Below, in pieces: positions 14,982 to 28,231 of a DNA stretch of 53,073 bases. The DNA is from an uncultured Lachnospiraceae bacterium (GTDB lineage: Bacteria > Bacillota > Clostridia > Lachnospirales > Lachnospiraceae), in NCBI GenBank assembly GCA_900316625.1, contig ONDO01000010.1:1-53073 (forward strand), given 5' to 3'. Both the position numbers and the translations under genes were made by a program. The notes beneath the pieces are model-generated. The model was given only the letters and a program-made list of their open reading frames with translations, did not search any database and was not told the origin of the DNA. Numbering within the stretch: the stretch's first letter is position 1; the number at the start of each line of letters is the position of its first letter.

Positions 14982-15010
14982 TTAATACAACAGGATTGTC
15001 GGTATGTCAA
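14982..15010 (-). promoter_or_regulatory. Promoter of the DUF2975-XRE pair
   Basis: On the minus strand TTGACA (15010-15005), a 17-base spacer and TATTAA (14987-14982) fit the vegetative consensus. The transcript would have a leader of about 130 nt. Confidence 0.75.
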
Positions 15011-15018
15011 TAAAAATA

Positions 15019-15033
15019 TATCGAATTTCGATA
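15019..15033. promoter_or_regulatory. Candidate operator TATCGAATTTCGATA
   Basis: A perfect 15-bp palindrome (odd centre) immediately upstream of the minus-strand -35 box, flanked on both sides by copies of an A-rich/ATAT word. Its size and position fit a binding site for one of the two neighbouring small XRE proteins. No binding data; inferred from symmetry and place. Confidence 0.5.
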
Positions 15034-15113
15034 AAAATATATTGAAGCGCAGTTTATCTGATCATCTGGAATTGACAAAAAGAAAAATATTATAGATTTT
15101 ATGTAAAATATAG

Positions 15114-15142
15114 TTGACAAAAAGTAATGAACAAGATATTAT
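15114..15142 (+). promoter_or_regulatory. Promoter of the 174-aa membrane protein and XRE regulator
   Basis: TTGACA (15114-15119), a 17-base spacer and TATTAT (15137-15142). It is divergent from the DUF2975 promoter, and the stretch between them is AT-rich. Confidence 0.78.
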
Positions 15143-15158
15143 GATGATGTCAAATAAA

Positions 15159-15172
15159 TACGACATGTTGTA
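15159..15172. promoter_or_regulatory. Candidate operator TACGACATGTTGTA near the start of transcription
   Basis: A 14-bp inverted repeat with one mismatched pair, just downstream of the predicted start of transcription; a further half-site CGACAT follows at about 15182. A repressor bound here would block the plus-strand unit, and the small XRE protein encoded at 15808 is the natural candidate. Confidence 0.4.
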
Positions 15173-15258
15173 AATGACAAACGACATAAAGTAACGAGAA
15201 AAGCAGTAAACAATATTAAGTGAAAGTTTTATAGAAAGAAAAGGCGGAGGTAATCGTT

Positions 15259-15783
15259 ATGGATGCATACAGAATTGGATTGATGAGTGGTTTCCTGGGA
15301 ACACTTGTATTACTGGTAGTTGTGATGTCACTGAAGAGAAAGAGACAGGGCGGGGCAGCTTATGATGAGCGCCAGGCAGCCATCAGAGGACGTGGTTACA
15401 AATACGCATATGTTACGGCAGGCTTACTTACATCAGTATATGCAATCTGCTTTGAAGGTATTGCAGAACGCTTTATCGAGCCGGGGCTGGTTCTGGTAGC
15501 GATTCTCTTCCTGTCCGGACTTGTACTTTCAGGCTACTGCATCTTCAAGGATGCATACTGGGGATACAACCAGCATAGGCATAAGGGCATGATCGTCTGC
15601 TGGGGAGCCTTGGTTATTCTCTTCCTTGCCCAGGCAATCAGTAAGATCATGGATGGAAAAGTGATCGAGAATGGCAGAATTAGTTTCGATGGTGGACTTC
15701 CTTTTGTCATGGTAGCCTTCTTTCTCGTTTTCCTCTGCATGCAGGGCCTTAAGCTTATCATCGATAAGAGAGACGCAGAATAA
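15259..15783 (+). CDS. Uncharacterised five-helix membrane protein, partner of an XRE regulator
   Basis: A 174-residue protein with hydrophobic segments near 6-25, 49-66, 75-95, 111-129 and 147-166. A cytoplasmic loop carries AAYDERQAAIRGRGYKYAY; a D-E-R-Q word in such a loop recurs in several small Firmicutes membrane families linked to XRE genes, but I cannot name the family with certainty. RBS GGCGGAGG precedes the ATG. It ends 24 bases before a 63-residue XRE regulator. The arrangement mirrors, head to head, the DUF2975-XRE pair. Confidence 0.65.
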   Translation: MDAYRIGLMSGFLGTLVLLVVVMSLKRKRQGGAAYDERQAAIRGRGYKYAYVTAGLLTSVYAICFEGIAERFIEPGLVLVAILFLSGLVLSGYCIFKDAYWGYNQHRHKGMIVCWGALVILFLAQAISKIMDGKVIENGRISFDGGLPFVMVAFFLVFLCMQGLKLIIDKRDAE

Positions 15784-15807
15784 GCTGCGAGAGAAAGGAA
15801 GGTCAGT

Positions 15808-15999
15808 ATGAAGAATCTAAATCTAAAATCAGCTCGAGCAGCCAAGGACCTGTCCCAGCAGCAGCTCGCAGATCTGGTTGGGGTTAGCCGCCAGACCATC
15901 AATGCGATTGAAAAGGGAGATTACAATCCTACCATTCAACTCTGCATCAGTATCTGCAAGGCGCTGGATAAGACGTTGAATGATCTCTTCTGGGAATAA
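15808..15999 (+). CDS. Small XRE-family transcriptional regulator
   Basis: A 63-residue stand-alone helix-turn-helix protein: LKSARAAKDLSQQQLADLVG then VSRQTINAIEKGDYNPTIQL and ICKALDKTLNDLFWE. This is the common short YozG-like form with the recognition helix in VSRQTINAIE. RBS GAAAGGAAGG. Co-transcribed with the upstream membrane protein; likely regulates the unit and perhaps the divergent one. A terminator lies at 16089-16132. Confidence 0.92.
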   Translation: MKNLNLKSARAAKDLSQQQLADLVGVSRQTINAIEKGDYNPTIQLCISICKALDKTLNDLFWE

Positions 16000-16088
16000 A
16001 GAAACCATATATATGGGAATAGTTTCTACAAAATGTATTGAATTAGGAATTTTGTACAATGCGTTGTGAAAATGAAATATAAGAGCAG

Positions 16089-16132
16089 AAAAACAGCACT
16101 TCATCGAATTCGCACGATGTGGCGCTGTTTTT
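16089..16132. terminator. Terminator after the XRE regulator, possibly bidirectional
   Basis: AAAAACAGC (16089-16097) pairs with GCTGTTTTT (16124-16132); an inner CATCG/CGATG stem strengthens the hairpin. A-rich and T-rich ends allow function in either direction. Confidence 0.72.
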
Positions 16133-16419
16133 GCGTAAACACTGTATTTATAGGGCCTTGAGGCACTTTTCCTTTGTCTGATTCCAGGAATGAACCGGGG
16201 GAAAAAATCTTAAAAAATCTTAGATATTTTACATTTTAACGCGTCAAATCAACGAAATTATTGGACGAAACTGTACGATATGCACAAAAACTGACATATA
16301 TATGTGCACATATTGAACAGTATCACGGAAAATGCCATGATATTTTTAATACTGATAGAAAAATATTCTATATTTTTGCGTTTGGAAATCATTTATATTT
16401 AACAGCGTCAACAGTAACT
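16133..16419 (+). promoter_or_regulatory. Upstream control region of the mgl cluster, with a 14-bp palindrome
   Basis: AT-rich noncoding sequence. ATATGTGCACATAT at 16300-16313 is a perfect 14-bp palindrome, with a related half-site (ATATGCACA) at about 16279. A second AT palindrome (AAAATAT-TCT-ATATTTT) lies near 16359-16375. A TATATT at 16394-16399 could be a -10 box but has no good -35 at 17 bases, which would suit a promoter needing an activator such as the AraC-type regulator encoded at 21208. This is inference from sequence only. Confidence 0.45.
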
Positions 16420-16436
16420 GACACCAAGGGGGTGTC
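16420..16436 (+). promoter_or_regulatory. Small hairpin just upstream of the mgl ribosome-binding site
   Basis: GACACC (16420-16425) pairs with GGTGTC (16431-16436), followed by AAAAAACATTTTGAGGAGGG and the start codon. If transcription starts near 16405 this would be close to the 5' end, typical of mRNA-stabilising hairpins of highly expressed genes. Confidence 0.4.
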
Positions 16437-16460
16437 AAAAAACATTTTGAGGAGGGTAAT

Positions 16461-17753
16461 ATGAACAAGAAAAGAATTCTTGCCATGACCACAGCAGCTC
16501 TTATGGGTGTATCCATGATGGCATGCGGATCTCAGGCAGGCAGCACGGGCGCTGCCACTGATGCAGGAAGTACTGATACCGCAACTGCTTCTACCAGCAG
16601 CGTTGCTAACAAGGATAAGCCCCTTGTATGGTACAACCGTCAGCCGTCCAACAGCTCCACCGGTGAACTCGACAGCGCAGCACTTAGCTTCAACAAGGAT
16701 ACCTACTATGTAGGTTTCGATGCTGTACAGGGTGCAGAACTTCAGGGACAGATGATCGCTGATTACATCGAGGCTCATAAGGATACTCTTGATCGTAACG
16801 GTGATGGCATTGTTGGTTATGTTCTTGCAATCGGTGATATCGGACATAACGATTCTATCGCTCGTACCCGCGGTGTTCGTAAGGCACTCGGAACCGGCGT
16901 TGAGAAGGACGGAGCTATCGTTTCCGATCCTGCTGGTACCAACACGGATGGATCTTCCACAGTAGTTCAGGACGGAACCGTTGCAGGTCTTACCGTTCGT
17001 GAGCTTGCTTCTCAGGAGATGAAGAACTCCGCAGGTGCTACATGGGATGCAGCTACCGCTGGTAACGCAATCGGCACCTGGACTTCTTCCTTCGGCGATC
17101 AGATCGATATCGTTGTTTCTAACAATGATGGTATGGGAATGTCCATGTTCAACGCATGGTCCAAGGCTGAAGGCGTTCCTACCTTCGGTTACGATGCTAA
17201 CTCCGATGCAGTAGCAGCTATCGCTGATGGTTACTCCGGAACCATTTCTCAGCACGCTGACGTACAGGCTTACCTCACCCTTCGTGTTCTTCGTAACGCA
17301 CTTGATGGTGTTGATGTAATGACCGGTATCGCTACCGCTGATGATGCAGGTAACGTTCTTGAAGAAGGTAAGGATTATCGTTATGACGAAGCTAACCGTT
17401 CCTTCTACGCATTGAACCTTGCTGTTACCGCTGATAACTACCAAGAGTTCACTGATGCAACCAAGCCTTATGGTCCGGTTGCTAACCAGCTCGATGCAGC
17501 GAAGAGCCCTTCCAAGAAGGTATGGCTTGATATCTACAATGCAGCAGATAACTTCCTTTCCGCTACATATCAGCCTCTGCTTCAGAACTACGACGATCTG
17601 ATGAACCTCGATGTTGAGTACATCGGTGGTGACGGACAGACTGAGTCCAACATCACGAACCGTCTTGGTAACCCTGGTGAGTACGATGCATTCGCGATCA
17701 ACATGGTTAAGACCGACAATGCAGCTTCCTACACTGCAATTCTGAACCAGTAA
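16461..17753 (+). CDS. Galactose-type (MglB-like) sugar-binding lipoprotein, apparently circularly permuted
   Basis: Lipoprotein signal at 1-22 (lipobox SMMAC), a Ser/Thr/Ala linker to about 50, then binding domains. Residues 52-335 (PLVWYNRQPS onward) match MglB from its second third to its end: calcium loop DRNGDGIVG, HND...R (129-135), W195, N221/N222/D223, D245. Residues 351-430 (VWLDIYNAADNFLSA ... DAFAINMVKTDNAASYTAIL) match the N-terminal third of ordinary MglB, with contacts D363 and F365. The order is thus swapped. Of the galactose contacts known for E. coli MglB, all appear kept except the last Asn (Q264 here). 430 residues against about 310 mature in E. coli. RBS GAGGAGGG; mglA and mglC follow. 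Confidence 0.88.
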   Translation: MNKKRILAMTTAALMGVSMMACGSQAGSTGAATDAGSTDTATASTSSVANKDKPLVWYNRQPSNSSTGELDSAALSFNKDTYYVGFDAVQGAELQGQMIADYIEAHKDTLDRNGDGIVGYVLAIGDIGHNDSIARTRGVRKALGTGVEKDGAIVSDPAGTNTDGSSTVVQDGTVAGLTVRELASQEMKNSAGATWDAATAGNAIGTWTSSFGDQIDIVVSNNDGMGMSMFNAWSKAEGVPTFGYDANSDAVAAIADGYSGTISQHADVQAYLTLRVLRNALDGVDVMTGIATADDAGNVLEEGKDYRYDEANRSFYALNLAVTADNYQEFTDATKPYGPVANQLDAAKSPSKKVWLDIYNAADNFLSATYQPLLQNYDDLMNLDVEYIGGDGQTESNITNRLGNPGEYDAFAINMVKTDNAASYTAILNQ

Positions 17754-17776
17754 TTCATTGTCGTAAGGCAGATCAC

Positions 17777-17814
17777 GGGGAGGCACAGGAGTTCGTCTCC
17801 TGAGTCTCCCCCTT
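17777..17814 (+). terminator. Partial terminator between the binding protein and mglA
   Basis: CAGGAG/CTCCTG and GGGGAG/CTCCCC stems stack with a small internal loop, followed by CTTTATTAT. The T-tract is interrupted, so read-through is likely and would set a high ratio of binding protein to transporter. Confidence 0.55.
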
Positions 17815-17894
17815 TATTATGGAAACGAGGACCGAGCAGGTCTGAGTCTCCACCCTTTTAAAAGTATTAATGAAGTTATACAGGAGTAAGGATT

Positions 17895-19406
17895 ATGGCA
17901 GAAGAAACAAGAGAAGACTACATCCTGTCGATCAACGGAATGTGCAAGTCCTTCGGCCGTAACAGGGTTCTGGACCACATCAATCTGAATGTGAAGAGAG
18001 GATCGATCATGGGTCTGATGGGCGAGAATGGCGCCGGTAAGTCGACCATGATGAAGTGCCTCTTCGGTACTTATCAGAAGGATGAGGGCGAGATCTTCCT
18101 CGAAGGTAAGGAAGTGAATTTCTCCGGCCCCAAGGAAGCCCTTGAGAACGGAATTGCAATGGTGCATCAGGAACTGAACCAGTGCCTGGAGCGCAGCGTT
18201 GTCGACAACCTCTTCCTCGGCAGATACCCGAAGAATGCAGCGGGCGTTGTCGATGAAGCACGTATGAAGAAAGAGGCATCTGACCTCTTCAGAAAACTGA
18301 ATATGACAGTCAACCTGACACAGCCTATGCGTAAGATGTCAGTTTCCCAGCGTCAGATGTGTGAGATCGCAAAGGCAATCTCTTATGATTCTAAGATCAT
18401 CGTATTAGATGAACCGTCTTCATCTCTTACCGTTCCTGAAGTCAACAAACTGTTCGATATGATGAGAAAGCTGAGAGATCAGGGAATCAGTATGATTTAC
18501 ATCTCTCACAAGATGGATGAGGTCTTCGAAATCTGTGATCAGATCTCTGTTCTTCGAGATGGTAACCTGGTAATGACTAAGGACACCAAGGATACCAACA
18601 TGAATGAGCTGATCGCAGCCATGGTTGGTCGTTCTCTTGACAATCGTTTCCCTCCTGTAGATAACACTCCGGGAGATACGATTCTGGAAGTGAAGGGACT
18701 GTCCACCAAGTTCGCTCCTCATATCAAGGATGTTTCCTTCGAAGTTAAGCAGGGTGAGATCTTCGGTCTCTATGGACTCGTTGGTGCAGGACGTTCTGAA
18801 CTCCTTGAGACAATCTTCGGAATTCGAACCAGAGCATCCGGCCGAGTATATTATGACGGTAAGCTGATGAACTTTAATTCCTCCAAGGAAGCAATGGGGA
18901 ACGGCTTTGCACTGATTACCGAAGAGCGTAAAGCAGATGGTCTCTTCATGAAGGGAGATCTTACCTTCAATACCACCATTGCAAATATGAATCATTACAA
19001 GTCAGGTATCGCACTTTCCGATTCGAAGATGGTCAAGGCAACCTCGAATGAGATTAGCGTTATGCACACCAAGTGCATGGGACCGGAAGATAATATCGGA
19101 GCACTCTCCGGTGGTAACCAGCAGAAGGTTATCTTCGGTAAGTGGCTTGAGAGAGACCCGAAGGTCTTCATGATGGATGAACCTACCAGAGGTATTGATG
19201 TAGGTGCTAAGTATGAGATCTACGAGCTCATCATCATGATGGCAAAACAGGGCAAGACAATCATTGTTGTATCCTCTGAGATGCCCGAAATTCTTGGTAT
19301 CACGAACCGTATCGGTGTCATGTCCAACGGACATCTTGCCGGTATTGTAAATACCAATGAAACGAACCAGGAAGAACTGCTTCGCCTGAGTGCGAAATAT
19401 CTGTAA
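17895..19406 (+). CDS. mglA: Galactose/methyl-galactoside ABC transporter ATP-binding protein
   Basis: 503 residues with two fused ABC domains, as in MglA, RbsA and XylG. First domain: Walker A GENGAGKST (43-51), degenerate signature VSQRQMCEIAKA, Walker B IIVLDEPSSSL. Second domain: degenerate Walker A GLVGAGRSELL, full signature LSGGNQQKVIFGKWL, Walker B FMMDEPTRGIDVGAK. It powers sugar import together with the permease downstream. Start at 17895 after AGGAGTAAGG. Ribose or xylose systems have the same architecture; the flanking MglB-like and MglC-like proteins favour galactose or glucose. Confidence 0.93.
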   Translation: MAEETREDYILSINGMCKSFGRNRVLDHINLNVKRGSIMGLMGENGAGKSTMMKCLFGTYQKDEGEIFLEGKEVNFSGPKEALENGIAMVHQELNQCLERSVVDNLFLGRYPKNAAGVVDEARMKKEASDLFRKLNMTVNLTQPMRKMSVSQRQMCEIAKAISYDSKIIVLDEPSSSLTVPEVNKLFDMMRKLRDQGISMIYISHKMDEVFEICDQISVLRDGNLVMTKDTKDTNMNELIAAMVGRSLDNRFPPVDNTPGDTILEVKGLSTKFAPHIKDVSFEVKQGEIFGLYGLVGAGRSELLETIFGIRTRASGRVYYDGKLMNFNSSKEAMGNGFALITEERKADGLFMKGDLTFNTTIANMNHYKSGIALSDSKMVKATSNEISVMHTKCMGPEDNIGALSGGNQQKVIFGKWLERDPKVFMMDEPTRGIDVGAKYEIYELIIMMAKQGKTIIVVSSEMPEILGITNRIGVMSNGHLAGIVNTNETNQEELLRLSAKYL

Positions 19407-19422
19407 TTAAAGGAGAAAAACT

Positions 19423-21072
19423 ATGGCTCAGAATAAGATTCTCACTGAGGAGGAAATCGTAGAGCTCAGAAAGCCAATAGATGAGTACGTTGGCAAGATT
19501 CAGACTGAGATTGATGAACTTCGTGCTGATGGTGCGAAGAAGGTTCAGGACCTGGAAAACCACATCATCCTTCTGAAGGAAGATAAGAGCTTTACCAAGG
19601 ACGAACGTGCAAGCCGCATTGCAAAAGATAAGGCTGAACTCGAGAAGGCTAAGGCTGTTGAAGCAAAGAACAAGGACAAGGTTAATGCCCTGATCGCTGA
19701 TGCAGAGTCCTATCTGAAAGAAAACTTCAATGCAGACTTCTACAACAAGGTAGATGCTTCCTGCGTTGAAGAGAAGAAAGAAATTCTCGCAGCATATGAC
19801 AGAGAAGTTGCAAAGCTTAAGACGGAGCATGAGACTGAACTTGCAAAGATCTCTGATGCAGCTGAGAAGAAGGATGAGAACTTCACCTACAAGAACCGCC
19901 TCTACGAAGCAAAGATGAAGAGAGATGAAGCTCTTAACAGGGTGAAGGATACCAGACATGAAGCCTTCGTATATCAGTATCATCTGATCGATAACCTTCG
20001 TATGTCCCGTTTCACCTTCTCCCAGAAGTTCATCCAGAACAGAGAGAACAAGAGATATACCTTCAACCGTACGCAGTTCCTCTATCAGAACGGTCTGTAT
20101 ATCGTTATCGCAATGGTCTTCATTATGCTTTGTATCATCACCCCTATGGTAAAGGGTACACAGCTTCTGACCTTCAACAACGTTGTTAATATTCTTCAGC
20201 AGGCATCTCCCCGTATGTTCCTTGCTCTTGGTGTTGCAGGCCTGATCCTTCTTACCGGTACCGACCTTTCCGTTGGTCGTATGGTAGGTATGGGCATGGT
20301 TACTTCTACCATCATCATGCATCAGGGACCCAATACCGGTGCTGTATTCGGAAAAGTCTTCGACTTCACCGGAATGCCTCTTCTAGGAAGAGCAATCCTG
20401 GCTCTGGTGCTGTGTATCATCTTCTGCACGATCTTCACATCCATTGCCGGTTTCTTTACTGCAAAGTTCAAGATGCATCCCTTTATCTCTACCATGGCGA
20501 ACATGCTGATCATCTTCGGCCTTGTTACCTATGCTACCAAGGGTGTATCCTTCGGTGCTATCGATCCCGCAATTCCTGCAATCTTCATTCCTAAGATAAA
20601 TGGTTTCCCGACCATCATCCTCTGGGCTGTAGCAGCAATCGCAATCGTATGGTTCATCTGGAACAAGACTACCTTCGGTAAGAACCTCTACGCCGTAGGT
20701 GGTAACCCTGAAGCAGCCGCTGTTTCCGGTATCTCTGTATTCTATGTAACGCTTGGTGCATTCGTTCTTGCAGGTACTCTGTATGGCTTCGGTGCATGGC
20801 TTGAGTGTAACCGAATGGTTGGTTCCGGTTCTGCAGCTTATGGACAGGGCTGGGATATGGATGCAATTGCAGCCTGCGTAGTTGGTGGTGTTTCCTTTAC
20901 CGGTGGTATCGGTAAGATCTCCGGTGTTGTAGTCGGTGTTCTGATCTTCACAGCACTTACTTATTCCCTTACCATTCTTGGTATTGATACCAACCTTCAG
21001 TTCGTATTCGAAGGTATCATCATTCTTGCAGCCGTAACTCTCGACTGCCTGAAGTATATCCGCAAGAAGTAA
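19423..21072 (+). CDS. mglC: MglC-type sugar permease with a ~215-residue N-terminal coiled coil
   Basis: Residues about 215-549 are a full-length MglC: first helix near 225-245, ASPRMFLALGVAGLILLTGTDLSVGR, WNKTTFGKNLYAVGGNPEAA, and DAIAACVVGGVSFTGGIGKISG. Residues 1-215 are an extra, charged, heptad-rich region (for example DERASRIAKDKAELEKAKAV and ILAAYDREVAKLKTEHETEL) with no signal peptide, expected in the cytoplasm. Canonical MglC is about 336 residues, so this is a large fusion. RBS AAAGGAGAAA is well placed before the ATG at 19423 and base composition does not change across the junction, so it looks like one genuine frame. A terminator follows at 21105. Confidence 0.9.
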   Translation: MAQNKILTEEEIVELRKPIDEYVGKIQTEIDELRADGAKKVQDLENHIILLKEDKSFTKDERASRIAKDKAELEKAKAVEAKNKDKVNALIADAESYLKENFNADFYNKVDASCVEEKKEILAAYDREVAKLKTEHETELAKISDAAEKKDENFTYKNRLYEAKMKRDEALNRVKDTRHEAFVYQYHLIDNLRMSRFTFSQKFIQNRENKRYTFNRTQFLYQNGLYIVIAMVFIMLCIITPMVKGTQLLTFNNVVNILQQASPRMFLALGVAGLILLTGTDLSVGRMVGMGMVTSTIIMHQGPNTGAVFGKVFDFTGMPLLGRAILALVLCIIFCTIFTSIAGFFTAKFKMHPFISTMANMLIIFGLVTYATKGVSFGAIDPAIPAIFIPKINGFPTIILWAVAAIAIVWFIWNKTTFGKNLYAVGGNPEAAAVSGISVFYVTLGAFVLAGTLYGFGAWLECNRMVGSGSAAYGQGWDMDAIAACVVGGVSFTGGIGKISGVVVGVLIFTALTYSLTILGIDTNLQFVFEGIIILAAVTLDCLKYIRKK

Positions 21073-21104
21073 TCTAACGATTCTTTTCATAACCCTTATA
21101 ATGG

Positions 21105-21135
21105 AGCCGGGTCTTTAGTATGACCCGGTTCTTTT
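21105..21135 (+). terminator. Terminator after mglC
   Basis: AGCCGGGTC (21105-21113) pairs with GACCCGGTT (21122-21130, one wobble), followed by CTTTTG. A TGGTAAAAT extended -10-like word at about 21138-21146 could start the regulator transcript. Confidence 0.78.
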
Positions 21136-21207
21136 GTGGTAAAATAATAGGGCTTATATTCGTAGGAGAATGGTTGGCATCACTAAGGTGCGATTGGGGA
21201 AAGTATT

Positions 21208-22815
21208 ATGGACAAGAAGTACACCGTCCTGCTCGTGGACGATGAAGAAGACGTCATCCGCGTCATGCAGAAGAAAATCGACTGGGAGGCTCTTGGTTTC
21301 TCAGTTATTGGCTATGCTCATGATGGCATGAAGGCCCTTGAGATCGCAGAAGAGACCTTCCCGGATGTTGTTATGACGGACATCAAGATGCCTTATATGG
21401 ATGGAATGGAACTCTGCCGCAGACTGAAGAAGGAATTCCCGGATCAGAAGATCATCCTCTTTACCGGCTTCGATGAGTTCGAATATGCCAAGGAAGCAAT
21501 CCATCTCGAAATCGAAGAATATATTCTGAAGCCAATCAATTCGATTGAACTTACTGATACCCTGAAGAAACTGAAAGAGACGCTGGACAAGGAACGTCTG
21601 GAGAAGCAGAACGTAGAGAAACTCCAGGCTTATTATTCCTCCTCTCTGCCTCTCCTGCAGCAGAACTTCTATACCATGCTGATCGAAGACCGCATTCCTG
21701 AGGGAGAACTGCCGCGCTATCTGCAGGAATATCAGATTCCGGATCTTGGCCCCCTGACGGTCTGTGTCATCTTCCATGCATCGAAGAATCATGTGCCGGA
21801 GGGAATCAGCCCAGCCATGCTCACGGTCTCTGTCCAGCAGTATGCAGATGAGCGCCTTCGGGAGAAATATAGAGCTTCCTTCTTAAGTTATCTGGGAGAC
21901 ACAGTGATGATCGCCTGCCTCGAGAATGAGGAGGCCGTATCCGACCTTACGGATGACTGTAACCGTATCTCCAGAAGCGCCGGCCGTCTTCTGGGAGCAG
22001 TTCTTACAGCAGGCATCGGTACTGCAGTGAAGTCTGTGGAAGATTTCCGCCAGTCCTACAATGGTGCAAGGGAGGCGGTATCTTACCGTGTCCTCTATGG
22101 TACCGGCCGTGCGATTAATATCCATGAAGTCGCCCCTACGGAACGGGTGTATGCAGATACCACCAATGAAGGTGCTCTGCATCCCCTTCTGAAACAGATT
22201 CGTATGGGTACGGAAGAGGATGTAAGAGAAGAAGTTCACTCCTTCGTCTTGAGTCTGAAGAATCATTCCAGCTCCCTTCGAGAGTACAAGATTACACTTA
22301 TGGAAGCGGTTTCCGGTATCTATCGTTTTGCATCCAGCAATGGACTGAGTCCGGATGAGGATGATGAGAGTGAGGAATTCTATCGTATGGCAAGTGACTG
22401 GGATCTGCAGACCTTAGAGACCCGCCTTACGGAGCTTGGCCTTACATTTCAGCGCAAGATATCTCAGGTAAGATCTTCGAGTTTCAGGTCTTATGTTGAG
22501 AATGCCATGGAGTATGTGAAGGAGCACTTCTCGGAACCGGATCTGTCCTTAGATACGGTCTGCACGGCATTAGGTGTGTCCGAGTCCTACTTCTCAAGTA
22601 TCTTCAAGAAGGAGACAGGCAAGTCCTTCATTAGTTACCTGACAGAGTATCGTATGGAGCAGGCTGCACGCCTTATGCTCCTTACAGATGATAAGAATTA
22701 TGTGATTGGTGAGAGGGTTGGCTACAGTGATGCCAATTACTTCAGTTATGTCTTCAAGAAGCACTTCGGTATGTCGCCGTCGGGATATCGCAAGGCGCAT
22801 GGAGGAGAAGCATGA
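21208..22815 (+). CDS. YesN-like response regulator with AraC-type DNA-binding domain
   Basis: 535 residues. N-terminal receiver domain: LLVDDEEDVIR acidic pocket, phospho-acceptor D58 in VVMTDIKMPYMDG, conserved Lys in YILKPI. A helical linker and a central region of about 250 residues follow, then a C-terminal AraC domain (about 428-530) with two helix-turn-helix units: LSLDTVCTALGVSESYFSSI and VIGERVGYSDANYFSYVFKK. It overlaps the histidine kinase gene by four bases (ATGA). Such pairs usually activate the adjacent sugar transporter; the mgl upstream palindrome at 16300 is a candidate site. Start at 21208 after TTGGGGAAAG. Confidence 0.92.
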   Translation: MDKKYTVLLVDDEEDVIRVMQKKIDWEALGFSVIGYAHDGMKALEIAEETFPDVVMTDIKMPYMDGMELCRRLKKEFPDQKIILFTGFDEFEYAKEAIHLEIEEYILKPINSIELTDTLKKLKETLDKERLEKQNVEKLQAYYSSSLPLLQQNFYTMLIEDRIPEGELPRYLQEYQIPDLGPLTVCVIFHASKNHVPEGISPAMLTVSVQQYADERLREKYRASFLSYLGDTVMIACLENEEAVSDLTDDCNRISRSAGRLLGAVLTAGIGTAVKSVEDFRQSYNGAREAVSYRVLYGTGRAINIHEVAPTERVYADTTNEGALHPLLKQIRMGTEEDVREEVHSFVLSLKNHSSSLREYKITLMEAVSGIYRFASSNGLSPDEDDESEEFYRMASDWDLQTLETRLTELGLTFQRKISQVRSSSFRSYVENAMEYVKEHFSEPDLSLDTVCTALGVSESYFSSIFKKETGKSFISYLTEYRMEQAARLMLLTDDKNYVIGERVGYSDANYFSYVFKKHFGMSPSGYRKAHGGEA

Positions 22816-24596
22816 AGAGGGGAATTCAATCGCTCATGATGCTGGTATTCACGGTCTTGTCCGTGTCTATCGTGCTTATACTGGGCATCCTCTTCTTCTG
22901 GCGCTATGTCCTCTCGACGAAGAATGCAATGGTCCAGAACGCTAAGACGGTCATGGAACAGGCAGGAGAGAATCTGGAGGACTATCTGATCTCCATGCGC
23001 CATATCTCCGATACGGCTACCTATGACATCATCTCTGAGAATGAGCTTACGGATCCGGAAGTAGAACGTGAACTCTACCTGCTCTATGAGGCGAATTCCG
23101 AGAATATTCGTTCCATTGCACTCTATGATCGCCATGGCTCTCTCCTGGTTGCAGAGCCGGTTGCAAGGCAGAAGGAAGATCCGGATGTCACCAAACAGCA
23201 GTGGTTTATCGATGCTTTGAATGAGATGGAGAACTATCATTTCTCGGTTCCCCATATTCAGAACTTATTTATCGATGATACCAAGGGCTATCACTGGGTT
23301 ATGTCGCTTTCCCGTACGGTGGATATTACAGAAGGAGAGACCCCTCAGATGGGTGTGCTCCTGGTTGATATGAACTATTCCGGGATTGAGCGCATGCTGG
23401 AGCAGATCAATACGGCACGGAATGGTCAGTATTACTTCCTCTGCGATCAGCAGGGACAGATTATCTATCATCCTGCCCAGATGCAGATCATGGGCAAGGT
23501 CCGCACTGAGGATACAGAAGAGGTCGCAGGTTATAAGGATGGCATCTATGACATGAAGTATGATGGCAAGCGTTCGAGCGTTGTTGTTCGTACCATCTCT
23601 TATACCGGCTGGAAACTGATAGGAATCATTCCCAATAAGAGCCTCTATCAGGGTACGGTTGGTAATATCTGGATGATCCTGCTCTTCCTTACACTTACGA
23701 TCATGACAGCGCTTCTGATCAATCGTTTCGCTTCGATCTACATTTCCACTCCGATCCTGAAACTGAATGAGTCGGTAAAACGATATGAAACAGGCTCGAA
23801 GACAGAAGTCTATATCGGAGGCCCGCCGGAGATCCGGCATCTGGGCGCATCGATTGAGAAATCCTATGAAGAGATTGACCGACTGATGAACCGGATTGTC
23901 GAGGAGGAGAAGGAACGGCGAAAGAGTGAGATGGATGCATTGCAGAGCCAGATTAATCCGCACTTCCTCTACAACACTCTGGATTCCATCACCTGGATGA
24001 TCGAGGGAGAGAAGAATGAAGAAGCAAGCTATATGGTTACCCAGCTTGCAAGACTGCTGCGCATCAGTCTCTCCAAGGGAAGAACTGTAATCCCCCTGGG
24101 TGATGAGATTCTCCATGCGATAAGTTATATGAATATACAGAAGGTTCGCTATAAGGAGTCCTTCTCAGTGTCCTTCGATGTTCCGAAGGAACTCGAGAAT
24201 TACTGCATCGTGAAACTGGTCATTCAGCCCCTCTTAGAGAATGCAATCTATTATGGGGTTGAAGGACTTGACGGGGATGGAGAGATCACAGTCAGCGTCC
24301 GTCAGGACGGGGACAAGATAGAGATCGAAGTAGCGGACAATGGAATCGGTATGCCGGAGGAGCTCGCAGCGAATGTTCTGACAGACAGCGAGCGTGTCCA
24401 CAAGAAGGGCTCGGGTGTAGGTCTACGTAATGTCGATACCCGTATTCGCCTCATGTTTGGTGAGCCCTATGGGCTTCGTGTCTGGAGTGAACCGGATGAG
24501 GGAAGCAGGATTACAATCGTGATCCCGATGATTCCTTATTCGGAAGCGAACCGGAAGATGCTCGAGGAAGGAGATAGTCATGCCAACAGAACGTAG
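22812..24596 (+). CDS. YesM-like sensor histidine kinase
   Basis: 594 residues. First membrane helix at about 8-32, a Cache-like extracellular domain of about 240 residues, a second helix near 285-305, a HAMP-like region, then the kinase core. The phospho-histidine lies in QSQINPHFLYNTLDSI, the signature of the LytS/YesM family; ATP-binding boxes are QPLLENAIYYGVEG (N box), VADNGIGMP (G1) and GSGVGLRNVDTRIRL (G2). It overlaps the regulator gene by 4 bases and the membrane-anchored binding-protein gene by 17 bases, so the three are translationally coupled and probably form one sugar-sensing unit. Confidence 0.93.
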   Translation: MKRGIQSLMMLVFTVLSVSIVLILGILFFWRYVLSTKNAMVQNAKTVMEQAGENLEDYLISMRHISDTATYDIISENELTDPEVERELYLLYEANSENIRSIALYDRHGSLLVAEPVARQKEDPDVTKQQWFIDALNEMENYHFSVPHIQNLFIDDTKGYHWVMSLSRTVDITEGETPQMGVLLVDMNYSGIERMLEQINTARNGQYYFLCDQQGQIIYHPAQMQIMGKVRTEDTEEVAGYKDGIYDMKYDGKRSSVVVRTISYTGWKLIGIIPNKSLYQGTVGNIWMILLFLTLTIMTALLINRFASIYISTPILKLNESVKRYETGSKTEVYIGGPPEIRHLGASIEKSYEEIDRLMNRIVEEEKERRKSEMDALQSQINPHFLYNTLDSITWMIEGEKNEEASYMVTQLARLLRISLSKGRTVIPLGDEILHAISYMNIQKVRYKESFSVSFDVPKELENYCIVKLVIQPLLENAIYYGVEGLDGDGEITVSVRQDGDKIEIEVADNGIGMPEELAANVLTDSERVHKKGSGVGLRNVDTRIRLMFGEPYGLRVWSEPDEGSRITIVIPMIPYSEANRKMLEEGDSHANRT

Positions 24597-25533
24597 GAAC
24601 TTCATAGTGATTGAAGTCCTGCTGGGAATTCTTGCTATCTTCTGCGCTGTTATGCTGGTTCGTGGGAATGTCACACCGAAGATGAAGAAGATTGCCGTGA
24701 TCCTCGATGACTCTGAAGGCGAGGAATGGAATGCCTTAAAGCACGGTATGAGAGAAGCTGCGCTGGAAGAAGGGATTACCCTGGATTTCGTTGGAACGGA
24801 TCATTTTGAAACGGTTGCGGAAGAAGAGGAAGTATGTAAAGCAGCGATCGAAGATGGGGCAGAAGGTCTGGTGGTATATCCCTTCATCGGGAATGATGGG
24901 GAGGAACTGACAGCGGGCAGCGTTCCCTATGTGGCAGTGAAATCCAGGAATGCTTCCTTCCCGGTGGTCGAAGCGGACAATTACGCGATGGGAGAGAGCC
25001 TGGCACAGGCAATCCTCGAGGATTACAGTGGGAACTTAGAGGCGAAGAAGGTTGGCTTTATCCTGAATAATAAGAATGATGAGGCCGAGTCAGAGAGACT
25101 TCGTGGGATTCAGGATACACTGGAGAACAGCGGCTATAAGACCCTCTGGTTCTTCGGCAGTGAGCCCACAAAGACTGCCAATCAGATTTCTGACTTCACT
25201 GAGGAAGTAGACATTATCATCGCTCTGGATGACGGGTCGCTTTCGCTGGCGGGAGAGCTGTCTTCTAACCGCAAACTCCATGGCGCGGTCGTCTATGGAA
25301 TCGGAAATTCTGCATCGAATTTCTATTATCTGGACACAGAGGCCATCCGGGCCATTACGGTTCCGGATATGTTTCAGATGGGCTATCACAGTATCATGTC
25401 CATTTCGAAACTAACCAGCTTCCCGAGCCGAAAGCCGGGGGATACTGTGGTTAAATATAATACGCTTCGCCAGAAGGATCTCTTCCTTCCGAAGAATCAG
25501 GAAGTGTTATACGGACTGGGACTGAATTCCTAG
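24580..25533 (+). CDS. Membrane-anchored periplasmic-binding-like sugar sensor
   Basis: 317 residues. A hydrophobic helix at about 8-28 without lipobox or clear cleavage site serves as an uncleaved anchor; residues 35-317 form a type I periplasmic-binding fold (KKIAVILDDSEGEEWNALKHGMREAA; EGLVVYPFIGNDGEE; VPYVAVKSRN; KKVGFILNNKNDEAESERL). It overlaps the kinase gene by 17 bases. In clostridial xylose sensing a membrane-bound binding protein (XylFII) works with a LytS-type kinase; I infer the same role here, handing a sugar signal to the YesM-like kinase. It is unlikely to feed the transporter, for which a lipoprotein follows immediately. Confidence 0.8.
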   Translation: MPTERRNFIVIEVLLGILAIFCAVMLVRGNVTPKMKKIAVILDDSEGEEWNALKHGMREAALEEGITLDFVGTDHFETVAEEEEVCKAAIEDGAEGLVVYPFIGNDGEELTAGSVPYVAVKSRNASFPVVEADNYAMGESLAQAILEDYSGNLEAKKVGFILNNKNDEAESERLRGIQDTLENSGYKTLWFFGSEPTKTANQISDFTEEVDIIIALDDGSLSLAGELSSNRKLHGAVVYGIGNSASNFYYLDTEAIRAITVPDMFQMGYHSIMSISKLTSFPSRKPGDTVVKYNTLRQKDLFLPKNQEVLYGLGLNS

Positions 25534-25543
25534 AAGGGGATTT

Positions 25544-26695
25544 ATGAAGAAATTAAGGGCATCTTCGAAGGTGGGACACAATTCAAAGATAGGACACAAT
25601 TCTCAGATGGGACAGAATTCTAAGATGGGACACAATTCTAAGATGGGTCATGGCCTTTGGATGGGACATGATCTTAATATAGGGGGACGGAGTGCAGGAA
25701 AGTGCCTGCTGGCACTGGGCCTTACTTGCGCATTGTCCTTAGGACTTGTCTCCTGTGGACAAAAGGATGCTGCAAAAACCGATACGCTGAAGATCGGTCT
25801 TACGGTCTATGATGACTCGGATACCTTCTTGTCACAGATCACGGAAGAGATCAGAAGCCGTGCCAAGGAAGATTCGGGTCCAATGAAGATTACCGTGAGC
25901 GCCAAGGGGGCTGATGGAAGTCAGAGAACTCAGGATGAACAGGTGGAAGAACTGATTGCCAGTGGCTGTAACATCCTGTTTGTAAATCTCGTCGATCGGA
26001 CGGATCCATCGAATATCATAGATCTTGCAAGAGATAATAATGTTCCCATCATCTTCTATAACAGAGAACTTGTTAAGGAAGACCTGATGCAGTGGGACAA
26101 ACTCTATTATGTCGGAGCGAAGGCGGGTCAGTCTGCAGAACTGCAGGGCCAGGAGATTGCAGCATATATTGCTGCACATCCGGAAGTGGATTCCAATGGC
26201 GATGGCAAGATTCAGTATGTCATGCTGAAGGGAGAACCTGGTCACCAGGATGCAATCATTCGTTCAGAGAAGGTGGTAGAAACCCTGCTTGCAGAGGGGG
26301 TGGAACTTGACAAGCTCTCCTACGAAGTAGCCAACTGGAGCCGTGCTCAGGCAGAGAACAGAACCAGCCAGCTGATTAGTGAGTATCATGGACAGATCGA
26401 ACTTCTCATCAGTAATAATGACGATATGGCCTTAGGTGCAATGGATGCCTATGATCAGTCCAACATGACCCAGAATGGTCGCCCGGCCATCTTCGGAATC
26501 GACGGAACCAAGGAAACTCTCGAGGCAATTCGTGCCGGTAAGGTGCAGGGAACCGTCATGAATGATGCAACCGGTCAGGCAGATGCCATGATGGACCTGG
26601 CAGAGCGGATCTTTCAAGGGAAAGACCTGTCTAAGCTTCCCCTGCTGAATGGAAAATATATCTATATCGATTACACAATTCCCCAGGAAAACTAA
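25544..26695 (+). CDS. mglB: Galactose/glucose-binding lipoprotein, canonical MglB order, with N-terminal hexapeptide repeats
   Basis: 383 residues. Residues 10-46 are six hexapeptide repeats (consensus M-G-H-N-S-K), then a lipoprotein signal CLLALGLTCALSLGLVSC with the lipid Cys at 71. The mature part is an ordinary MglB: TVYDDSDTFLSQ (D93, F95), FYNRE (N173), calcium loop DSNGDGKIQ, GHQDAIIR (H234, D236, R240), W265, NND 291-293, D320, N340. The first ATG is preceded by GAAGGGGAT, while later ATGs in the repeats have no ribosome-binding site, so the long N-terminus is probably translated. It closes the sensing operon and is the best in-window comparison for the permuted protein at 16461. 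Confidence 0.9.
   Translation: MKKLRASSKVGHNSKIGHNSQMGQNSKMGHNSKMGHGLWMGHDLNIGGRSAGKCLLALGLTCALSLGLVSCGQKDAAKTDTLKIGLTVYDDSDTFLSQITEEIRSRAKEDSGPMKITVSAKGADGSQRTQDEQVEELIASGCNILFVNLVDRTDPSNIIDLARDNNVPIIFYNRELVKEDLMQWDKLYYVGAKAGQSAELQGQEIAAYIAAHPEVDSNGDGKIQYVMLKGEPGHQDAIIRSEKVVETLLAEGVELDKLSYEVANWSRAQAENRTSQLISEYHGQIELLISNNDDMALGAMDAYDQSNMTQNGRPAIFGIDGTKETLEAIRAGKVQGTVMNDATGQADAMMDLAERIFQGKDLSKLPLLNGKYIYIDYTIPQEN
25573..25680 (+). repeat. Six-unit 18-bp minisatellite inside the 5' end of mglB
   Basis: Units begin at 25573, 25591, 25609, 25627, 25645 and 25663. Consensus GGGACACAATTCTAAGAT; the first four are near identical and the last two have diverged. The period of 18 keeps the frame, encoding the hexapeptide repeat ahead of the signal peptide, so copy-number change would not disrupt the gene. 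Confidence 0.93.
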
Positions 26696-26710
26696 ATTTT
26701 AAAAACTTTG

Positions 26711-26739
26711 TTGACAAGATAGGATCTTCTTGCTATATT
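26711..26739 (+). promoter_or_regulatory. Promoter of the padR module
   Basis: TTGACA (26711-26716), a 17-base spacer and TATATT (26734-26739), right after the mglB stop codon. Near-consensus. Confidence 0.87.
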
Positions 26740-26758
26740 TACTACGGCAGACGTAGTA
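26740..26758. promoter_or_regulatory. Candidate PadR operator at the transcription start
   Basis: TACTACG (26740-26746) and CGTAGTA (26752-26758) are perfect 7-bp inverted arms with a 5-base spacer, abutting the -10 box. A repressor bound here would block initiation. PadR proteins commonly autorepress through such dyads; binding is inferred. Confidence 0.6.
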
Positions 26759-26763
26759 CGACA

Positions 26764-26838
26764 GTCGATACAACGCGTGACAATGCAACGATAGATAATA
26801 CAACGAGAGACAATGTAACGCGTGACAATGCAACGACT
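26764..26838 (+). repeat. Five-unit 15-bp minisatellite in the padR leader
   Basis: Units begin at 26764, 26779, 26794, 26809 and 26824; consensus GACAATGCAACGCGT, with GACAAAG as a partial sixth. It lies between the operator-like dyad and the padR ribosome-binding site. Repeat number would change leader length and spacing. Confidence 0.87.
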
Positions 26839-26857
26839 GACAAAGAGGAGGAGATCT

Positions 26858-27190
26858 ATGGTTGAGATCAGTAGTGATGTCATCCGCGGATATAACGATA
26901 CGATGATCCTCTATCTCCTGTTGGAACAACCATCTTATGGTTATGAGATCTCTAAGAGAATCTCAGAGATGACCGGAGGGCTCTATAAGATCAAGGAGAC
27001 AACCCTTTATTCGGCCTTCAATCGAATGGAGAAGAATGGACTCGTGACTTCGTTTTATCAGGCAGCGGAGAACGGGAAACGCAGAACCTACTACAGCATC
27101 ACAGAGAAGGGCAGAGCCTTCTATCAGAGTAAGACAGAAGAGTGGGAGCTTACCAAGAACGTAGTAGAACATTTCATCCGTAAGGGATAA
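26858..27190 (+). CDS. PadR-family transcriptional regulator
   Basis: 110 residues. The winged-helix pattern is clear: YNDTMILYLLLEQPSYGYEISKRI, then IKETTLYSAFNRMEKNGLVTSFYQ (recognition helix) and GKRRTYYSITEKGRAFY (wing). The start at 26858 follows GAGGAGGAG; the longer frame from 26822 would translate the leader repeats. PadR genes of this kind stand before HAAS-domain and DUF4097 genes, as here, and repress that envelope module. Ligand unknown. Confidence 0.92.
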   Translation: MVEISSDVIRGYNDTMILYLLLEQPSYGYEISKRISEMTGGLYKIKETTLYSAFNRMEKNGLVTSFYQAAENGKRRTYYSITEKGRAFYQSKTEEWELTKNVVEHFIRKG

Positions 27191-27241
27191 TGAGTGTAAA
27201 CAGTGGAATAATAGACAGTGATTCTCTATGGAGGAGAAGTT

Positions 27242-28231
27242 ATGAATACAATAAAAAATTATCTGGAATCCATGTTTGCCCAGCTTCCGAATACACCGGA
27301 AGTATGGAAAGCCAAGGATGAACTATGGCAGATGATGGAAGACAGATATACAGATCTTATTGCAGATGGTAAGACAGAGAATGAGGCGGTTGGGGCAGTT
27401 ATCGCTGAATTCGGTAATCTGGATGAACTTGCGGAGACACTTGGTATCCGTGGTGCCATGAATCAGGCACCTCAGTATCAGGCAAGTATCCTCTCTGCAA
27501 GCGATGCCTTCCAGCTGATTAAGGATAAATCAAGAGCAAGCCTGATCAATGGCATCGCAGTTTTACTCTTTATCTGTTCCGTTATGTCACCGGTGGTATT
27601 TTCGTCACTTTCTATTGGAGAGAATTCCGGAACCCTTGGCGTTGTAGGAATGTTCGTTATGATTGCAGTCGGTGTAGGCCTTGAAATCTATCAGAATACG
27701 ATGATTGGAAAGTGGAAGTATATCCATAATCAGCCCTGCCAGATCGATGCAGATACTGCAAGTCAGGTCTATAACGAGATGGAGAGCTTCCGAGGAACCG
27801 CAGCAATCATGAAGATGCTTGCAGTTGCTCTGCTTGTGCTCTGTGTGACTCCTACGATCCTTAGTTCAACCCTCCAGGATGCAGGCTATAGATCCAGTAT
27901 TGGCGTAGTTTTCATGTTCCTTTTTATTGGTCTGGGAGTCATGATCCTTGTAGCAGTGGACGGAAGAGAGAAGGCTTATAAGGAACTTGTGAACCTGAAT
28001 CCACAGTCAACGATTGCTGGAAGTTATGTACCGAATTATGGGGAAGACGTTATCTATCACAGTACAGCAATGACAGCATTTATGCAGGTCTTCTGGCCGA
28101 CAGTTACCTGTATCTATCTGAGCTGGAGCTTTCTTACCTTTGATTGGCATATCAGCTGGGTGATCTGGCCCATTGCCGGCCTTATCTTTGCTTTGCTTAA
28201 GAATCTCTTTGGTACGGAGGTAAGACGATGA
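27242..28231 (+). CDS. HAAS-domain (permease-prefix) membrane protein
   Basis: 329 residues. Residues 1-75 form a HAAS/permease-prefix helical domain (NYLESMFAQLPNTPEVWKAK and ENEAVGAVIAEFGNLDELAE), followed by about six hydrophobic segments in three pairs. The start at 27242 follows GGAGGAGAAG. Encoded directly after padR and overlapping the DUF4097 gene by four bases (ATGA). Proteins of this layout are regularly co-encoded with PadR regulators and are thought to act in envelope-stress control; the exact role is unknown. Confidence 0.8.
   Translation: MNTIKNYLESMFAQLPNTPEVWKAKDELWQMMEDRYTDLIADGKTENEAVGAVIAEFGNLDELAETLGIRGAMNQAPQYQASILSASDAFQLIKDKSRASLINGIAVLLFICSVMSPVVFSSLSIGENSGTLGVVGMFVMIAVGVGLEIYQNTMIGKWKYIHNQPCQIDADTASQVYNEMESFRGTAAIMKMLAVALLVLCVTPTILSSTLQDAGYRSSIGVVFMFLFIGLGVMILVAVDGREKAYKELVNLNPQSTIAGSYVPNYGEDVIYHSTAMTAFMQVFWPTVTCIYLSWSFLTFDWHISWVIWPIAGLIFALLKNLFGTEVRR

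Follow-up and report, generated by a model that had tools for sequence, protein, structure and literature searches.

A Probable Permuted MglB-Type Sugar-Binding Lipoprotein of the TpMglB-2 Group Encoded in a Lachnospiraceae mgl Operon

Introduction

A circularly permuted topology with a fourth hinge crossing has been reported for MglB-2 of Treponema pallidum (TpMglB-2, Tp0684; PDB 5JX2, 6BGC and 6BGD), a protein that binds D-glucose at 1.1 uM with a conformational change (Brautigam 2016, PMC4990184). The same paper describes many homologues of permuted topology in spirochaetes and in Gram-positive bacteria, the latter often from the gut, and proposes the names Type Ic / Cluster Bc for the group. 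Here we analyze a stretch of 53,073 nucleotides of an uncultured Lachnospiraceae bacterium (contig ONDO01000010.1 of assembly GCA_900316625.1, "the window" hereafter), in which the plus-strand open reading frame (ORF) at 16461-17753 encodes a 430-residue permuted MglB-type glucose/galactose-binding lipoprotein, as judged from the ORF, PDB comparison and the Pfam families PF13407 and PF18610. We consider it about 95% probable that this 16461 protein is a lipid-anchored, permuted glucose/galactose-binding protein of the TpMglB-2 group that passes its sugar to MglA and MglC, and that a canonical paralogue encoded further downstream (P0002, 25544-26695) is more probably a sensor receptor.

A first-pass annotation of the window had proposed the permutation and had not been aware of a precedent in this family. 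One exists: a structure solved in 2016 (5JX2) already showed the equivalent permutation, in a protein that bound D-glucose in vitro, and the 16461 protein is a further example of it, not a discovery. Among the literature matches listed, judged by titles and the starts of abstracts, no other natural case of the permuted topology was found, and nothing specific on permuted receptors in Lachnospiraceae beyond PMC4990184. Natural circular permutants of binding proteins reveal which joins and cuts are tolerated by the fold, which is of use in sensor design.

Results

Comparison with T. pallidum MglB-2 and Canonical MglB

The ORF and its coordinates were as first annotated, and a ribosome-binding site graded as good, GAGGAGGG, was read off the sequence at 16449-16456 of the same strand. 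Residues 1-52 (16461-16616) comprise a signal peptide, a probable lipid-anchored Cys22, whose lipobox was assigned by eye, and a low-complexity linker. They are followed by segment A (residues 53-335, 16617-17465), equivalent to canonical MglB from the strand of Asn91 to the C-terminus, by a joint that links the former C-terminus to the former N-terminus (residues 336-352, 17466-17516), located in the rotated multiple alignment and expected to form the fourth hinge crossing described for TpMglB-2 (PMC4990184), and by segment B (residues 353-430, 17517-17750), equivalent in alignments and profiles to the first part of the canonical N lobe.

In a phmmer search against the PDB, TpMglB-2 was matched over almost its full length (query residues 50-427, chain residues 19-384; E 1.7e-89). 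Canonical MglBs had much lower scores, and the best stretches displayed for them fall in segment A. Almost the whole mature chain is thus collinear with TpMglB-2. PF13407 was found at residues 42-283, with the profile entered at position 70, and PF18610 (Peripla_BP_7), which we take as a mark of the TpMglB-2 group, lies downstream of the Peripla_BP_4 part, at residues 352-421, where it scored 138.1 bits (cut-off 36.8). The canonical MglB family NF011924 gave only 88.3 bits, below its curated cut-off of 420, and the N-lobe strands do not come first in the chain, as they do in canonical MglB.

The 16461 protein and TpMglB-2 both have the permuted order, their break points differ by no more than a few residues, and they share the lipoprotein nature, the ligand contacts and an altered calcium loop, at 38-42% identity in structural alignments. 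They differ in that the 16461 protein has Asp363 where TpMglB-2 has Asn311 (D14 in E. coli), a spacer from the lipid-anchor Cys to the contact Asn that is longer by around 19 residues, and a few short insertions. With E. coli MglB (GGBP) it shares the type I fold, predicted in our case, nine of the ten glucose contacts and part of the calcium loop, but it differs in the order of the chain and, if TpMglB-2 is a guide, in a fourth hinge crossing and in having both termini in one lobe.

In the favoured reading, a short joint came to link the two former ends of an MglB chain, which was opened instead in the loop that precedes the Asn91 strand. The resulting order is shown by the sequence; both termini would now lie in the N lobe, with four hinge crossings, an arrangement seen in a crystal structure from T. 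pallidum.

Sequence Evidence for the Permuted Order

The first-pass annotation had aligned the segment that starts at PLVWYN with P0002 from PIIFYNRE, and this collinear match was confirmed: residues 54-286 gave a local score of 223, against a mean of 38 and a maximum of 61 in 500 shuffles, and a score of 220 was found with the later part of E. coli MglB (maximum of 67 in 500 shuffles). The placement of the break just before the strand carrying the Asn sugar contact also agrees with the multiple alignment. The other half of the claim, that the C-terminal block equals the N-terminal part of the paralogue, was also confirmed. The last 90 residues scored 63 with that part of P0002 (shuffles up to 53) and 57 with that of E. 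coli MglB (shuffles up to 52), but the local match with P0002 was limited to residues 343-392; the later pairing of the first-pass annotation, AFAINMVKTDN/ILFVNLVDRTD, was seen in the alignment with E. coli MglB (residues 346-427) and in the multiple alignment. The pairwise support is overwhelming for the first block, and real but modest for the second.

When E. coli MglB was doubled end to end, a single collinear alignment covered residues 54-427, with a gain of 28 against 20 or less in 300 shuffled-segment controls; the same test on P0002 itself gave no gain. The test was extended from five hand-picked transport MglBs, four of which gained more than all shuffles, to all 56 canonical MglBs fetched. 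Of these, 12 of the 24 transport-type and 13 of the 32 sensor-type proteins gained more than any of 60 shuffles, as did none of 20 controls from the SBP3 family (20 of 80 tested). A structure prediction, which had been suggested as a check of the proposal, placed the three strands that open the canonical N lobe at the C-terminus of the model. Sequence, profiles and the predicted model support a chain order that is circularly permuted relative to MglB.

Origin of the Moved Segment

PMC4990184 leaves possible that the moved segment of TpMglB-2 derived from a different gene, and the same can be asked here: segment B could come from another gene and have converged on the same position of the fold, in which case the permutation would not be a true one. 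Several results weigh on that side. Segment B and canonical N-termini have few identical residues, and 13% identity was reported for the T. pallidum protein (PMC4990184); PDB searches with segment B and with its profile returned TpMglB-2 sequences only and no canonical chain; 31 of the 56 canonical MglBs did not surpass all shuffles in the doubled-sequence test; and the reverse-profile matches were weak, with a best E of 0.0079. However, a profile-profile comparison placed segment B at the N-terminus of 57 canonical MglBs (score 37.5, E 2.3e-5). The 19 column-shuffled controls reached 26.3 at most, and the scores of the SBP3 family and of the reversed profile were 13.6 and 12.6; the match weakened when the transport or the sensor subset was used alone (probabilities of 23% and 33%). 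When the segment B profile was compared with the 2310 ORFs of the fetched loci, its non-permuted matches with E <0.01 (seven rows, five distinct proteins) were all canonical MglB N-termini. Of 108 domains matched by the canonical N-terminal profile, 105 lay at the C-termini of permuted proteins, and the remaining three had E of 35-54. The counterparts of contacts D14 and F16 also sit in place within segment B. No intermediate in which the N-terminal segment is present twice, at its old and at its new position, was found among the permuted ORFs of those loci. As a whole, this evidence argues with moderate strength for the true permutation of an MglB, and an origin of segment B in another gene appears improbable.

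Sugar Contacts and Ligand

The contacts listed for E. coli MglB (PMC4990184, Table 2) were located in the 16461 protein through the rotated alignment, made of the query and 12 other rows, one of which is the query again. Nine of the ten are equal: D363, F365, N59, H129, D131, R135, W195, N222 and D245 correspond to D14, F16, N91, H152, D154, R158, W183, N211 and D236. The only difference is Gln264 in place of N256, as had been pointed out in the first-pass contact list, which was correct in this respect and in the rest. All ten positions are invariant across 51 permuted proteins (alignment A1). That a hexose site had been retained, also proposed at first, is backed by sequence, profiles and the predicted model.

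As the protein has Gln at the counterpart of Asn256 and its ligand is so far deduced from sequence, that ligand could be neither glucose nor galactose but another sugar. This we consider unlikely, although slightly less so than an origin of segment B in another gene, since the remaining contacts are all identical to those of E. coli MglB, and TpMglB-2, likewise with Gln at that position, is reported to show significant thermal shifts with glucose and galactose only, among 190 carbon sources (PMC4990184). The ligand is thus probably glucose or galactose, on which, by analogy with TpMglB-2 and given the conserved contacts, the protein would close in a Venus-flytrap manner; contacts and operon together suggest that the hexose would be handed to the co-encoded MglA-MglC importer.

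Distribution of the Permuted Order

A scan of species-representative genomes returned 356 relatives of the permuted protein, of which the best 80 were retained. The relatives aligned under the criteria of at least 400 residues and more than 500 bits made up, with the query, a set of 95 proteins. The 94 further proteins align over the identical order, with 70-82% identity to the query, and none extends beyond its last residue. The stretch preceding PLVWYN has 31-176 residues in this set, and the six longest ORFs (>480 residues) extend upstream past a signal-like start. An assembly artefact or a chimeric gene might be suspected in a draft genome of 52 contigs, but its probability is practically nil and it was ruled out, as the segment order is kept in these 94 relatives.

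PF18610 was found in 21 of 200 genomes sampled from the family of the window, its own genome counted, and in two of 398 sampled from the phylum, one being its own. The permuted operon is also present on a contig labelled Bacteroidales (L036), whose MglA shows a tree distance of zero to the MglA of a genome of the window's family (G188); it is probably a mislabelled bin.

Operon and Extended Permease

The gene of the 16461 protein heads a run of seven plus-strand genes, encoding the receptor, an MglA-type ATPase, an MglC-type permease, a response regulator, a histidine kinase, SBP3 and a canonical MglB. The ATPase (17895-19406, 503 residues) has PRK10982 MglA as its best NCBIfam match (672.6 bits, below the cut-off of 828). 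The gap between receptor and ATPase genes contains a strong hairpin (17777-17811, plus strand): 17752-17894 folds at -48.9, against a mean of -35.2 in shuffles (z -3.3). In the 120 bases that follow the receptor stop, the most stable 45-base window reached -15 kcal/mol or better in 72 of 78 relatives, and windows inside mglA did so in 19 of 78, although their composition was not matched to that of the post-receptor windows. The hairpin may serve to maintain a higher level of the receptor transcript. An Rfam scan of 15000-27500 gave nothing at gathering level.

The permease (19423-21072, plus strand), assigned with Pfam and NCBIfam, has 549 residues compared with 336 in E. coli. Its residues 1-217 (19423-20073) precede the first membrane-like segment and were predicted as a soluble extension of long helices (predicted local distance difference test, pLDDT, 88.7), from an alignment of the query and 32 of 67 relatives. 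Foldseek found no match for the extension in the PDB at E <= 0.001, and its best rows, designed bundles and F-BAR proteins, were taken as generic helix likeness; no Pfam family was above cut-off, and the matches listed in a narrow literature search for MglC extensions look unrelated, two of them dealing with Myxococcus proteins that share the name.

MglC has 508-568 residues in 83 of the 84 fetched permuted-receptor loci with full MglA, and the remaining locus has a split gene (L030); this count leaves out four permuted loci that stop short of MglC, as well as 17 of 105 with a short or missing MglA. As some loci repeat a genome, the distinct permuted-side MglCs are 81, of which 80 are long. 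By contrast, MglC has 327-429 residues in all 26 canonical operons, chosen from P0002 matches plus E. coli. The extension occurs in exactly the 21 of 200 family genomes that carry PF18610, so that in the sampled genomes it was found only together with the permuted receptor, and a permuted operon from another family (L164) has an MglC of 553 residues. Several canonical operons share the wider order of receptor, MglA, MglC, response regulator, histidine kinase, SBP3 and MglB, but their MglA and MglC are distant. In a tree of 27 of the 88 permuted-side and all 26 canonical MglAs, the former made up one side of a branch with a support of 100/100.

This pattern fits a receptor, MglA and MglC module inherited as a unit, and shared ancestry alone can produce an identical association between receptor and permease. 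A coupled redesign may tentatively be proposed, at somewhat less than even odds, in which the permuted receptor is inherited only with a permease whose long N-terminal arm is helical and probably lies in the cytoplasm, receptor and permease forming a distinct transporter subclass that replaces ordinary MglBAC in otherwise identical operons. The link with the extended permease offers a testable reason for the persistence of the permuted form.

Downstream Sensor Genes and Canonical Paralogue

Downstream on the same strand, Pfam identified a response regulator with an AraC-type DNA-binding domain (21208-22815) and a sensor histidine kinase with a dCache domain (22812-24596). A divergent type I binding protein (SBP3, 24580-25533; hydrophobic N-terminus by eye) and P0002, of canonical order by ORF, Pfam and NCBIfam, follow. 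This block (21208-26695) recurs beside both permuted and canonical mgl operons, either downstream of the transporter genes or upstream of them, with the canonical MglB adjoining the transport receptor gene (L072, L148 and L149). Judging from gene order, P0002 more probably serves the adjacent two-component system as a receptor than takes part in transport, and SBP3 and the regulator-kinase pair would also have a role in sensing. The disposition resembles that of XylFII-LytS receptor-kinase pairs, in which the gene of a sugar-binding protein lies beside that of the kinase, as SBP3 and the canonical MglB do here; the likeness, known here from the genes, concerns the downstream genes and not the permuted protein. 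Permuted and canonical MglBs in one cluster make a natural pair for asking about the effect of permutation. The N-terminus of P0002 (25544-25700) shows a repeated G-H-N-S-K-[IM]-like motif ahead of the signal sequence, and therefore its true start may be further in.
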